From IMG/VR virus record IMGVR_UViG_3300010370_000015, positions 1-30,163 of that record: 30,163 nucleotides of DNA. The stretch is one strand, 5' to 3'. Shown one piece after another: positions 6,628 through 19,184 of the stretch; position 1 is the first letter of the stretch; each line of letters begins with the position of its first letter. This DNA comes from a virus. The notes below the pieces were generated by a model. It was not told the origin of the DNA and searched no databases. It saw nothing but the letters and a program-made list of their open reading frames with translations. Made by a program: the position numbers and the translations under genes.

Positions 6628-6882
6628 ATGAAAAGACTAATAATTTTAGCACTATTATTTGCTAGTTGTAATAAGCAAAGTGTACAGCCTTCCTCACAGG
6701 TAAAAGATTGCAATTGTGATAGAGTAGTGGAAAAGCATAAATTTAATATGGTAGGAAATCAGTCAGGGCAAGTAATTTATTTTGGTGATTACATTACTAT
6801 AAATGATTGTACAGGTATCCAAAAAAGTGGTGATTGGAATAGCACTAATGATCCAGAGCCAATAGTTGGACAATGTTATTAA
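6628..6882 (+). CDS. Small lipoprotein
   Basis: The 84-residue product has a classic lipoprotein signal: MKRLIILALLFASC, with Cys14 as the lipidation site. The mature part is Cys-containing and polar (KDCNCDRVVEKHKF, then VIYFGDYITINDCTGIQ), ending in GQCY. It should be exported and anchored in the inner or outer membrane. Phage lipoproteins expressed early often block superinfection by related phages; that role is inferred. It is preceded by the structured 6550-6623 segment and followed by a new promoter. Confidence 0.8.
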   Translation: MKRLIILALLFASCNKQSVQPSSQVKDCNCDRVVEKHKFNMVGNQSGQVIYFGDYITINDCTGIQKSGDWNSTNDPEPIVGQCY

Positions 6883-6887
6883 AATAG

Positions 6888-6916
6888 TTTGCATTTAAAA
6901 TAAATTATTATTTTTG
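6888..6916 (+). promoter_or_regulatory. Bacteroidota-type promoter for the replication operon
   Basis: TTTG at 6888-6891 is separated by 17 bases from TATTTTTG at 6909-6916, a good match to the TTTG / TAnnTTTG consensus. Transcription would start at about 6920, at the first hairpin of the leader described next. Confidence 0.8.
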
Positions 6917-6920
6917 TATC

Positions 6921-7025
6921 ATGTCGTGCAGGACATAGTTAAGAAGTTATTTAAAAGTCTAATGGTGAGTAGGGCTGCACCCCGAAAACTGTTAGGCTTT
7001 TGTCGTTTAAATAAGTGCAGTTATT
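6921..7025 (+). ncRNA. Structured 5' leader with kissing-loop potential
   Basis: Hairpin 1 is ATGTC (6921-6925) and GACAT (6932-6936), closing the 6-base loop GTGCAG. A 10-bp stem joins 6953-6962 to 6992-7001 with one G-U pair. Inside it, GGG (6972-6974) and CCC (6981-6983) enclose the loop CTGCAC, an exact complement of loop 1. A second GTGCAG at 7015-7020 lies five bases before the ATG at 7026 and can compete for CTGCAC. This looks like a regulatory leader, possibly translational control of the replication gene. I cannot match it to a named RNA family. Confidence 0.6.
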
Positions 7026-7688
7026 ATGGCAGAAAACAAGAAAGGATTTGTTTTATATGCAGATCAACGTAGCATAATAGATATGCTTTCAAATGAAAAG
7101 GCTGGAGAATTAATAAAACATATTTTTTCTTATGTCAATGATGAAAATCCAATTAATAATGATCCTCTAGTTTTATTAGCTTTTGAGCCTATTAAATTGC
7201 AATTAAAACGTGATTTAATTAAATGGGAAGATACACGTTCTAAACGTAGTAAAGCAGGTAAAATAAGTGCTGAAAAGAGGAGTAAACAAAATGAACACAT
7301 GTTAACACATGTTCAAAGTGTTGAACACAACTCAACAAATTCAACAGTAATAGTAAATGATACAGTAAATGTTACAGTAAAAGATATATATTCTTTTGAT
7401 GAGTTTTGGTCTACTTATGGTAAGTCAATTGATAAAAATAAATGCAAAGCTAAATTTGAAAAGTTATCTAACGAAGTAAAACTTAAAATAAAAGAGGTAT
7501 TACCTTTGTACGTTCAATCAACTCCAGATAAACAATTCCGTAAAAACCCACAAACATGGTTGAATGGTCAATGTTGGAATGACGAAGTAAAAACCATAAT
7601 GAAAGAAGAAACGGTTGAACAAATGAATGACCGAATGCTATACGAGAATGTAATGAAAAAAATAAACATGTACCATGCTAAAGACTAA
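7026..7688 (+). CDS. Replication initiation-like protein
   Basis: The 220-residue product begins KGFVLYADQRSIIDML and SNEKAGELIKHIFSYVND, a segment resembling the DUF6291-type N-terminus. A polar linker rich in Thr, Val and Asn follows (about 95-118). The C-terminal part has FDEFWSTYGK and FRKNPQTWLNGQCWND, the hallmark of phage replication organiser and helicase-loader proteins. It probably binds origin DNA and recruits the helicase encoded directly downstream, whose start it overlaps by 14 bases. It is the first gene behind the 6888 promoter and the structured leader, so its dosage is likely regulated. Confidence 0.75.
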   Translation: MAENKKGFVLYADQRSIIDMLSNEKAGELIKHIFSYVNDENPINNDPLVLLAFEPIKLQLKRDLIKWEDTRSKRSKAGKISAEKRSKQNEHMLTHVQSVEHNSTNSTVIVNDTVNVTVKDIYSFDEFWSTYGKSIDKNKCKAKFEKLSNEVKLKIKEVLPLYVQSTPDKQFRKNPQTWLNGQCWNDEVKTIMKEETVEQMNDRMLYENVMKKINMYHAKD

Positions 7689-8562
7689 AGGAAGCGATAT
7701 AGACTACCTACTAAACTATCATAGTGGTAAGATTAAGATGGGAGATGGAATAGGATGTCAAATAGATGACTATTTCAGACAGAAACGAGGTGAACTAAAT
7801 CTAATACTTGGACACGATAACGTTGGTAAGTCATACTGGATAAATTGGTTTTTCTTATGTCAAGCGATCATAAACAACCATAAAATCCTCATGTGGTCAG
7901 GTGAGAACAAAACGGGAACTATTTTAAGAGATATGGTACAAATGTACTGCGGTAGAAGTTTCAAAAGCTTAACAGTTAAAGAAATTAGAAACTACTCCAT
8001 GTACTTAGAACAGTATTTCGATTTTGTAGATAATTCAAAACTGTATAAACCAAATGAACTACTTAAATTATTTCAGGATTCAGATGCACAAATTTGCCTT
8101 ATTGATCCGTTTACAGGTTTAGATAGGGAAATGGGATACGAGAGTAACTATCGTTTCTTAAATCAAGCAAGACAGTTCGTAAATCAAACACAAAAGACAT
8201 TGTACATAAACACCCATCCAACATCGGAGAGTGGTAGAAACGGAAACTTATACACCGATGGCGAATGGAAAGGACATCTAAAGCCACCATTAAAGGATCA
8301 CGTAGAAGGTGGTAAGGCATTTTTAAATAGGATAGATAACATGCTAGTGATACATCGCCTTATCAAACATGAACACATGAAATTCATGACTATGGTAAAC
8401 GTAGAAAAAGTTAAAGACCAAGATACAGGTGGAAAGATCACAGGATTAAACAACCCTGTAATGTGTGAGTACAACTCTGGTTTAGGATTTAAAATTGAAT
8501 TTATAGATCCATTAGCTAAATTTAGACCGAAACCTGACACTTCTAATAATTTAATTTTTTGA
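7675..8562 (+). CDS. DnaB-like / RecA-fold replicative helicase ATPase
   Basis: The 295-residue protein is a RecA-fold ATPase: Walker A GHDNVGKS at 46-53, SGEN at 75-78 in the place of the catalytic acid of DnaB-like enzymes, Walker B ICLIDP ending at Asp144-Pro145, and a sensor-type INTHPTSE around His181. The late EGGKAFLNRIDNMLVIHR motif is typical of DnaB/Twinkle relatives. It lacks the N-terminal primase-interaction domain of full DnaB, so it resembles the single-domain ATPases of small phages. It probably unwinds phage DNA with the initiator encoded upstream. A RepA-like role is the main alternative. Confidence 0.8.
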   Translation: MLKTKGSDIDYLLNYHSGKIKMGDGIGCQIDDYFRQKRGELNLILGHDNVGKSYWINWFFLCQAIINNHKILMWSGENKTGTILRDMVQMYCGRSFKSLTVKEIRNYSMYLEQYFDFVDNSKLYKPNELLKLFQDSDAQICLIDPFTGLDREMGYESNYRFLNQARQFVNQTQKTLYINTHPTSESGRNGNLYTDGEWKGHLKPPLKDHVEGGKAFLNRIDNMLVIHRLIKHEHMKFMTMVNVEKVKDQDTGGKITGLNNPVMCEYNSGLGFKIEFIDPLAKFRPKPDTSNNLIF

Positions 8563-11577: not shown

Positions 11578-11963
11578 CACAAAAAAGAAAAAGACGAACC
11601 AAAGCAGAAATACTTGCAGCTAAAAGCGAAGGCTTAGGAGATACACTAGAAAAGGTATTTGAAGCAACAGGAATTGCATCTGTGGTTAAATTCATTGCAG
11701 GAGATGACTGTGGATGTGCGGAAAGAAAAGACAAGCTAAATCAAATATTCCCCTATCATAAACCAAACTGCCTAGTAGAAGCAGAATACAACTACTTGTC
11801 GGACTTCTTTAATACCAATACTAACATGGTAACAGGAGAAACACAAAAAAGACTGCTAGAGATTTATAACCGAATCTTTAACCAGAAGAAACAACCTACT
11901 TCCTGTGGATCATGCCTAAGAGATGTAGTAAACCAATTAAAACGCGTACACAACACATACTAA
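11574..11963 (+). CDS. Conserved phage protein with CGC and CxxC motifs
   Basis: The 129-residue protein has a very basic start (KRKRRTKAEILAAK), then GLGDTLEKVFEATGI, DDCGCAERKDKLNQIFP and SCGSCLRDVV. The pattern recurs in Flavobacterium-type phages near the terminase genes. The cysteine pairs suggest a metal-binding or redox-sensitive site. It is coupled to the sigma factor gene by a 4-base overlap and to the next gene by TAATG. Function is unknown; a role in DNA packaging or transcription is possible. Confidence 0.75.
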   Translation: MTQKRKRRTKAEILAAKSEGLGDTLEKVFEATGIASVVKFIAGDDCGCAERKDKLNQIFPYHKPNCLVEAEYNYLSDFFNTNTNMVTGETQKRLLEIYNRIFNQKKQPTSCGSCLRDVVNQLKRVHNTY

Positions 11964-16860: not shown

Positions 16861-19184
16861 GGAAGATAAGCGTATATATTGAAGGTGAAAGAATAGAACT
16901 ATTCAACGATGAGAATATAGTAGTAAACTCATCCTATCAAAATTATAAAGACTTAGCTAAGATATTTACAGATTTTAGCCAAAGCTTCACCGTACCAGCA
17001 AGTGAAAGAAACAACGAAATATTCCAACACTTCTACCAAACGGACGTAGATACTACTTTAAACTTTCAATTACGTAGGGAAGCAAAAATAGACATAGACC
17101 ATTCACCATTCAGAACAGGGAAGATTCAACTAGAAAAGGCTAACCTAAAGAATGGAATGCCTGAAAGTTATACTATAACGTTCTACGGTGATTTAAGAAG
17201 CTTATCGGATATATTTGGAGATGACAAGCTTATCTCTTTAGATATGTCGAACTACACACATACATATAATGGTACAGAAGTTCGTAATAGAGTGACTACT
17301 GCTACGGATTATGATGTGCGCTATCCTCTAATATCTAGTAAAAGAGTTTGGACATATGGAGATGGATCAACAACGGACATTGCTAATGCAATTCCTACTT
17401 ATCCAATAAGTTATACGGAGTTATTCCCTGCTATAAAAATCCAAAGAATATTTGATGCTATAGAAGATAAGTATGGTATTACATGGTCTGGAACATTCCT
17501 AAGCGACAAACGATTTACGGATTGCTTTTTATATCTAAAGAATAAAGAAAAGTTTGAAGTATATAGCCCTGTTTATCCTGTGGACTTTACTACAACGGAC
17601 AATAGTACATTCTTTAATACTACTACGGACTACTTACAAGTAGGTTATGTATCTATACCTAATGCTTCGCATAAAGTACAAGCACGTGTAACGGTATATA
17701 CTGGCACATGGTATTTACAGGTGTTTAAAAATGGATTGCTTTACACTACTTTAACAGGAGATTCAACTACAAACGGCAACACATTTGAATTCTTTAATAC
17801 GGATAATGTAAACGGATTAAACGAAAAATTCACCTTTAAGATATACGGCACGCAAACCACTCTTTACAATGTATATGTGTATTATGAAATAAGCAATCCT
17901 GTAGCACTCTTAAATGTGAGTTCTTATGCTTCTACAAATATTGCTTCACCTTCACAATTAGTAGTTACAAATGTTAACTTGGCAGATAATATGCCAGATA
18001 TGAAAGTGGCAGATTTTGTAGCAGGTGTATTTAAGCAGTTCAATTTGATGTGTACAGGAAAAACTACAGACACTTTCCAAATAGATACACTAGACGAATG
18101 GTATGCAAAAGGTTATTTATGGGATATAACTCAACATACAGATATAGATTCCATAGATGTAGAACGCATCAAACTATTCAAGCGTATAAGTTTTGAACAT
18201 GAGGAATCTAGGTCATTCATGAATACTGAATTCAAGCAAATGAATGATAGAGAATATGGTTCTTTAGAACAAGCATTTGATTATGATGGAGAAGAATATG
18301 TTACTAAAGTTCCTTTTGAAAACCTACTACAACAGCAATTTACTTATGAACAAGATGGAGATATACTTCCAACTGGTCTACAGGTAGGATATTGCTTAGA
18401 ACAAGACACATATAAGCCATATGTACCAAAACCTATTTTATTATATAAATATGATAGGACATATTCTACTGGTTTTTATTTTGATTCAGGTTCAGGTGGT
18501 TATTTTCAAGATTTTTATATTCCATTCGGACAAGACTTAAAATATAATAATTTGCAGTATTCTCTAAATTGGGGAAATGATATTTCATCTTTACTTTTAG
18601 AAAACATACCGAATAGTGCATATCAAGTATATTACTCTAATTATATCTTGAATTTATACCAAGCCAAAAATAGAGTATTAAATGTTAAGGCACATTTCCC
18701 TATTAGCTTAATGACAAAGCTGCGCCTAAATGATAGGTTAATAATTAGAGATAAACGCTATACTATAAATGAAATGAAGTCTAATCTTACTACTGGTGAG
18801 GTAGACTTACAACTAATATTAGACTTTAGACCTGTAAAAACAGTAAAACTACCTAAGATATGGTGGAAAGGTGGTGACATTAAATGGGCAGGATTCTTAC
18901 CAAACGGTGCTGTATTAGGTGAAATTGAAGTAGGTGCTAGTGGTATAACAGCTTCGCCTAGTACATTCACAGAGGAAGCTATTATAACATTTACAGTACC
19001 TGAGAATCCTACTCCAACAGAGTATATGATTACTGAAATAGAGGATAATTTTATTACTGAGGAAGGCCAAAACTATAGAACGGAAACAGGAGGAGAATTA
19101 GATTACGGGATTTATATCGATTATACCTATGAAAATGGGGATACGGAATCAATAGATATACCATTTATACAGTTAGGATCATGA
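16857..19184 (+). CDS. Large baseplate / tail-tip protein
   Basis: The 775-residue protein begins RKISVYIEGERIELFNDE and IFTDFSQSFTVPASERN, a start typical of large tail proteins in Bacteroidota siphoviruses. The middle (roughly 240-340) is a Thr/Tyr/Asn-rich beta region with YLQVGYVSIPNASHKVQARV, reminiscent of a carbohydrate-binding or jelly-roll domain. LRLNDRLIIRDKRYTINEMK near residue 625 resembles a baseplate-hub repeat, and the C-terminus is beta-rich and acidic. It probably forms the tail tip. The following gene overlaps by 4 bases. Confidence 0.7.
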   Translation: MRKISVYIEGERIELFNDENIVVNSSYQNYKDLAKIFTDFSQSFTVPASERNNEIFQHFYQTDVDTTLNFQLRREAKIDIDHSPFRTGKIQLEKANLKNGMPESYTITFYGDLRSLSDIFGDDKLISLDMSNYTHTYNGTEVRNRVTTATDYDVRYPLISSKRVWTYGDGSTTDIANAIPTYPISYTELFPAIKIQRIFDAIEDKYGITWSGTFLSDKRFTDCFLYLKNKEKFEVYSPVYPVDFTTTDNSTFFNTTTDYLQVGYVSIPNASHKVQARVTVYTGTWYLQVFKNGLLYTTLTGDSTTNGNTFEFFNTDNVNGLNEKFTFKIYGTQTTLYNVYVYYEISNPVALLNVSSYASTNIASPSQLVVTNVNLADNMPDMKVADFVAGVFKQFNLMCTGKTTDTFQIDTLDEWYAKGYLWDITQHTDIDSIDVERIKLFKRISFEHEESRSFMNTEFKQMNDREYGSLEQAFDYDGEEYVTKVPFENLLQQQFTYEQDGDILPTGLQVGYCLEQDTYKPYVPKPILLYKYDRTYSTGFYFDSGSGGYFQDFYIPFGQDLKYNNLQYSLNWGNDISSLLLENIPNSAYQVYYSNYILNLYQAKNRVLNVKAHFPISLMTKLRLNDRLIIRDKRYTINEMKSNLTTGEVDLQLILDFRPVKTVKLPKIWWKGGDIKWAGFLPNGAVLGEIEVGASGITASPSTFTEEAIITFTVPENPTPTEYMITEIEDNFITEEGQNYRTETGGELDYGIYIDYTYENGDTESIDIPFIQLGS

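Follow-up and report, generated by a model that had tools for sequence, protein, structure and literature searches.

In phage P4, a hairpin RNA from the leader of the replication genes pairs with an upstream sequence of the same leader, seqA, and this results in premature termination of the replication genes (PMC4825925). Kissing hairpins with internal loops beneath the apical loop occur in antisense systems, in which the internal loops aid pairing (PMC4878617), and the homing endonucleases of phage T4 are restrained by RNA structure in the leader (PMC2988022). We compared with these systems a leader that lies before a replication gene in an IMG/VR virus record of 30,163 bases, hereafter the window (the whole stretch of DNA that was analysed, to which positions refer throughout). 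It carries two hairpins with mutually complementary loops, an arrangement that recurs, with other loop sequences, in many related phages.

The leader in the window

All features of the leader lie on the plus strand. A promoter of the Bacteroidota type spans positions 6888-6916, with TTTG at 6888-6891, a 17-nt spacer and TATTTTTG at 6909-6916; as the preliminary description had proposed, it points at the first hairpin, and transcription would start near position 6920, approximately at that hairpin. This 5′ hairpin, P1 (ATGTC-GTGCAG-GACAT, 6921-6936), has the stem ATGTC/GACAT and the apical loop GTGCAG (loop A, 6926-6931). It is followed by a single-stranded, A/U-rich linker (6937-6951) containing GAAGTTATT, with GAAGTTATTA in the linker being recurrent among the type-1 relatives described below, and by a predicted terminator-like hairpin, P2 (6952-7002), the stems of which covary in alignment A2 (see below). 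The outer stem of P2 has a 10-bp core, AAAAGTCTAA/TTAGGCTTTT (6953-6962/6992-7001), which the MFE fold lengthens to 15 pairs (6952-6966/6988-7002); the same fold contains a purine internal loop, GAGUA (6967-6971) and GAAA (6984-6987), and the inner hairpin GGG-CTGCAC-CCC (6972-6983), with an inner stem GGG/CCC of 3 bp. Its loop, CTGCAC (loop B, 6975-6980), is the exact complement of loop A. The U-run after P2 consists of four U only (6998-7001), and a simple terminator scan makes no call at this site in the window. A third GTGCAG is located at 7015-7020, five bases 5′ of the ATG at 7026. On re-check, the positions that had been assigned to both hairpins, the outer stem, the third GTGCAG and the ATG all proved correct.

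The first gene of the operon (7026-7688) codes for a replication-initiation-type protein, as judged from PHROGs replication initiation families, with DUF6291 at its N-terminus (PF19808, E 1.7e-23). The second (7675-8562) is of the DnaB-like helicase or primase-helicase type (phrog_18375, E 2e-20), and a gene of this type is the second one behind the leader in most relatives (cluster c1). Directly 5′ of the leader there is a small ORF (6628-6882) with a lipoprotein-like start, MKRLIILALLFASCNK, and without a PHROG match.

Taken alone, the loop match in the window is only suggestive. When the upstream region was shuffled 40 times with dinucleotides preserved, 2 shuffles, or about 1 in 20, reproduced a loop-loop match of at least 6, and the fold energy of the window, with a z of -1.5, is not unusual.

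Complementary loops across relatives

Relatives of the replication gene were collected from IMG/VR by protein similarity, and many of them share the same layout, with loops that are different yet match each other. Type-1 elements were sought with a terminator-core pattern free of loop letters, followed by a 7-nt complement filter on the matches, and at least 32 distinct elements were recovered. The 28 sequences of alignment A1 leave no cell of the loop-loop helix unpaired (100% pairing), with both-sided change in six of the eight loop-loop pairs and one-sided change in none, and the covariation score was reached by 0 of 500 shuffles. Weak second R1 matches in G010, G018, G019 and G022 were not elements when inspected.

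For the window type, IMG/VR was searched with the internal loop and inner stem of the window as a pattern, the loop letters being left free, and elements were selected if their outer stem reached 6 bp or more and a T-run was present; loop A was not used in the choice. Among the matches listed, a stretch of 6-8 nt that is perfectly complementary to loop B lies upstream in all 50 selected elements, which contain at least 24 different loop sequences, as against no complement in 34 of the remaining 46 listed pattern matches. Moreover, loop A is closed by a P1 of at least 4 bp in 46 of the 50 listed relatives, compared with 5% at displaced positions. Internal loops differ between subfamilies, and the conservation of the GAGUA/GAAA letters within the window type was partly imposed by the search pattern, whereas the stems and loops were not. 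Two loose-core search patterns yielded many matches in coding DNA, which were discarded on manual inspection or through the outer-stem test.

Alignment A2, composed of 24 sequences with the window placed first, exhibits covariation in all five helices (P1, outer, inner and loop-loop included), with 98.7% of cells pairing. Its loop-loop helix is 100% paired; six of the seven pairs are double-changed, one-sided change never occurs, and none of the A2 measures was reached by any of 500 shuffles. The inner stem of 3 bp, which had been remarked upon for its shortness, is a kept feature of the window-type family and is among the covarying helices. Model R2, which was built from A2, assigns 61 bits to the window, itself a member of the training set; members outside the training set include Harreka_1, mumin6-1, L062, L016, L042 and L006. 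It is this comparative evidence, namely the complements in 50 of 50 elements and the A2 covariation, that is decisive for the reality of the loop pairing, unlike the window alone. The exact 6-nt complementarity noted in the preliminary description is thus borne out by selection on the pair in both alignments, and the compensatory changes that it proposed to look for in homologous leaders are indeed present. Comparison of sequences shows both hairpins and the strict covariation of the complementary loops, and the leader is almost certainly a conserved one in which A pairs with B.

The family has a fixed order on the coding strand: promoter, P1, P2, U-run. The motif TAnnTTTG lies at most 22 nt from P1 in 32 of 32 type-1 and 35 of 50 window-type elements among the matches listed, as opposed to 1-2% at displaced positions. 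In most relatives P2 is a stable hairpin with a U-run, mostly of 5-9 U, before the coding region, and P2 is predicted to stop transcription. The first reading had overlooked this terminator shape, as well as the homing-endonuclease sites and the loop switching among near-identical phages described below. Inverted repeats are typical of protein-binding and origin sites, and the elements precede a replication initiator, so that A and B could be imagined as inverted copies of such a site in DNA, with the hairpins being incidental. However, the covariation in P1 and in the inner and outer stems is independent of that in the loops, the order of features on the coding strand is fixed, and the element also heads homing endonuclease genes, all of which make a DNA-level feature extremely improbable.

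The third GTGCAG had been viewed as a possible competing partner; loop B would then alternate between it and loop A to open and close the ribosome site. Such a translational switch would suit the short U-run of the window and the presence of the third copy in the window and in its close lineage, L016/L017/L018, as well as that of an equivalent, GGTATCA, in L012. As a family feature, however, the third copy is absent: among the matches listed, the window is the only one of 50 window-type elements to have it, as against 0 of 32 type-1 elements, the sister lineage L210/L220/L229 lacks it despite an equally short U-run, and L230 has a strong U-run without it. The switch is therefore unlikely, and the third GTGCAG is possibly lineage-specific. 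Of the kissing-loop switch or copy-control-like RNA that had been envisaged, the paired loops stand and the copy-control-like part is the best reading, while a GTGCAG competitor is no feature of the family.

Loop switching and a possible attenuator

Across 29 leaders, loops match their own partners over 6-10 nt (median 8), and the cross-leader median is 4; in this comparison L005 was cut from the wrong promoter, its true loop pair being CTTCCTAC/GTAGGAAG. Near-identical phages, with downstream DNA 94-100% identical, often possess wholly different loop pairs in which complementarity is kept. L300 and L406, with identities of 100% and 99.8% in the downstream DNA and of 92-94% in the upstream DNA, differ on both sides in three of seven loop pairs, and a similar paired change is seen in L345/L377, L323/L338 and L030/L034. 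The changes hit three to five loop positions together, on both sides, with no intermediates among near-identical phages. A tree built from the A1 columns other than the loops contains 10 loop switches, and in type-1 elements the variability of loops A and B is approximately twice that of the linker and outer stem. Each of the loop types GTAACGG, GTTGCAG and GTCGTGG is found before three different genes.

If compensation were neutral, it should lag behind change in unpaired sequence. Since the paired loops change faster than the rest of the leader, selection for differing specificity, rather than drift, would be at work, and the fast paired switching seen by comparison points to selected specificity, perhaps aided by recombination, the compared element pairs not being independent of each other. 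Other sources of loop switching could be recombination with neutral donors or escape from foreign antisense RNA. If the loops diversified to escape antisense RNA made against the leader by a host or a satellite, and not for self-recognition, switching between near-identical phages would be accommodated too; escape alone, however, needs no complementarity between A and B, yet this complementarity is kept without exception. We know of no host or satellite antisense RNA against the leader, and an arms race of this kind is very unlikely.

The leader could also be a purely structural one acting in cis, in which an intramolecular A-B kiss builds a fixed fold; this fold would either determine how strong the terminator is or serve to bind a protein or a small molecule, the loops being subject to neutral compensated drift. 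A binding site is suggested by the conservation of the purine internal loop and of the linker, linker lengths permit pairing in cis in many members, and kissing pairs of known cis RNAs covary too. These points have to be weighed against the simultaneous both-sided changes without intermediates, the recurrence of a few loop types in different gene backgrounds, the rapid variation of the loops, and the dissimilarity of internal loops between subfamilies, and we regard action in cis only as possible but doubtful. A hammerhead or a kink-turn was rejected for the internal loop, since the core residues and the bulge misfit by eye. The variation of internal loops between subfamilies would tend to speak against a single aptamer core common to all members, as in a metabolite riboswitch, and a ligand-binding switch is not the best reading.

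The reading that we favor, to which we would give an even chance, is a kissing-loop attenuator that governs early phage operons, perhaps in part in trans as a self-specific antisense control. Transcription would begin at P1, which exposes loop A; about 45-58 nt after P1, P2, terminator-shaped in most relatives, would offer the complementary loop B; and A-B pairing, be it within one molecule or between molecules, would determine whether the polymerase stops at P2 or enters the replication genes. Stopping would yield a leader RNA of about 85-100 nt with the same loops, able to pair in trans with freshly transcribed leaders of identical loop type; such pairing would exert dosage feedback on the replication genes and would allow a phage to repress, self-specifically, co-infecting phages of its own type. 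We infer the direction of the A-B effect, the control of termination by A-B pairing and the action of the leader in trans from sequence comparisons. Control of operon read-through or expression by the leader is probable, while for self-specific action in trans the chances may fall just short of even. If action in trans holds true, close virulent relatives would differ in RNA-coded compatibility types, and the outcome of competition in co-infection would be predictable from seven or eight bases. More tentatively, the loop pair may represent a polymorphic self/non-self code of mostly virulent phages, in which leader RNA with the same loop shuts the replication operon; loop types would then be RNA immunity or incompatibility groups, with their diversity maintained by selection.

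Genomic setting and comparison with known systems

A full-layout scanner, applied to 1.5 kb upstream of the replication gene at 62 distinct loci, detected the element at 41 of them, versus 2 in reversed sequence, and at least six of the 21 scanner misses (L014, L015, L041, L042, L046 and L056) carry the element as judged by other means. Among loci found by the RNA pattern alone, the gene for rep or a helicase is one of the first ORFs in 23 of 24. The placement of the leader before a replication gene in the preliminary description can therefore be extended: by comparison, the element sits at the head of the replication operon. Window-type elements also head VapE-like and prim-pol replication genes, as well as genes for homing endonucleases that contain NUMOD4-HNH or GIY-YIG domains. 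Two elements, unlike in their loops, are present in some phages. Second kissing leaders, with loops GTTACGG or GTCGTCG, are found directly 5′ of NUMOD4/HNH homing-endonuclease genes in L087 (3512-3610), L114 (3937-4030), L072 (4322-4430) and mumin6-1 (11677-11759), each of which has another leader before its replication genes. In L155 (1333-1440) and L176 (minus strand), the gene behind a kissing leader with GTCTTCAC/GTGAAGAC is an unclassified ORF of 383 aa, and the element thus reaches beyond replication and endonuclease genes. A small hairpin, GGTWATCTTAAAACC or a form that differs in the stem, for example CCGTAGCTTAAAACGG, abuts the start codon of a 70-80-aa ORF in L082 (about 2165-2186), L249, L247, L248, L061, L300 and L406, and looks like a separate translational element.

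The layout is present, each time with its own loop pair, in the cultured phages morran9-1, mumin6-1, lillamy9-1, phi18:3, phi19:1, phi19:3, Harreka_1 and elemoA, including virulent Flavobacterium phages; by name, the hosts are Cellulophaga for phi18:3, phi19:1 and phi19:3, Olleya for Harreka_1 and Flavobacterium for elemoA. The RNA leader of morran9-1 (MN812219; 14157-14300) shares sequence with gp042, which is annotated as a hypothetical protein but is probably no real gene. The tyrosine recombinase domain PF00589 was found in two of 24 element-bearing records, many of which are fragments: Cellulophaga phi18:3 (17656-18183) and phi19:3 (17385-17909), at about 31 bits, the other 22 records being without it. 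The mumin phages, which belong to the LMO phages, are reported to replicate only lytically (PMC7077304). Lysogenic immunity as a general role is weakened by these observations, because many of the element-bearing phages appear to be virulent. Neither model gave a prophage or host copy in 395 Bacteroidota genomes, a search with strict filters and no positive control that consequently shows little.

Neither the window nor 20 related loci matched any family at Rfam 15 gathering thresholds, in agreement with the earlier failure to match the leader to a known one, and a permissive Rfam scan gave only chance-level snoRNA and leader-family matches. The literature searched, with few subscription papers among it, contains no earlier description of the element. 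This large RNA family is new relative to Rfam 15 and to the literature searched, and it adds an unnamed family to Bacteroidota phages at the entry to DNA replication, the regulation of which is, to our knowledge, almost unstudied in this phylum. The element counts given here are lower bounds for its size. Its presence in the cultured morran9-1, lillamy9-1, mumin6-1, Harreka_1, phi18:3 and elemoA makes it testable.

Like the P4 cI RNA and the C4 antisense RNA of P1/P7 (RF01695), the element resides in the leader of a phage replication operon and has a hairpin complementary to an upstream target in the same leader. However, P4 cI/C4 has a downstream target, seqC, of which a general equivalent is absent here (1 of 50 and 0 of 32 elements among the matches listed; the window/L016 lineage and L012 have one); in the present family, target A is the loop of a 5′-terminal hairpin and comes in many types; and P4 cI/C4 is a processed, stable RNA that causes termination in trans and confers lysogenic immunity, whereas the present element is found in phages described as virulent. 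The window was not matched by the RF01695 (C4) model, either at gathering or with E values of up to 10 allowed, nor were 20 related loci at gathering. Because the downstream target and the Rfam model fail while one feature is shared, we do not file the element as a P4 cI member, although it may work similarly. The leaders of T4 endonucleases have a parallel in those family members that precede free-standing HNH and GIY-YIG genes, but the T4 structures mask the ribosome binding site, as opposed to the terminator shape and kissing loops of this family. Attenuators of the pT181 type share with it the position in a rep-gene leader, an intrinsic terminator and kissing hairpins with internal loops (PMC4878617). 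In pT181 the antisense RNA is made from the opposite strand and is fully complementary to the leader; here, one transcript contains both loops, and an opposite-strand antisense RNA is therefore not required by the layout. In its working, the element would be like the P4 cI RNA or pT181 attenuation, while being a member of neither.
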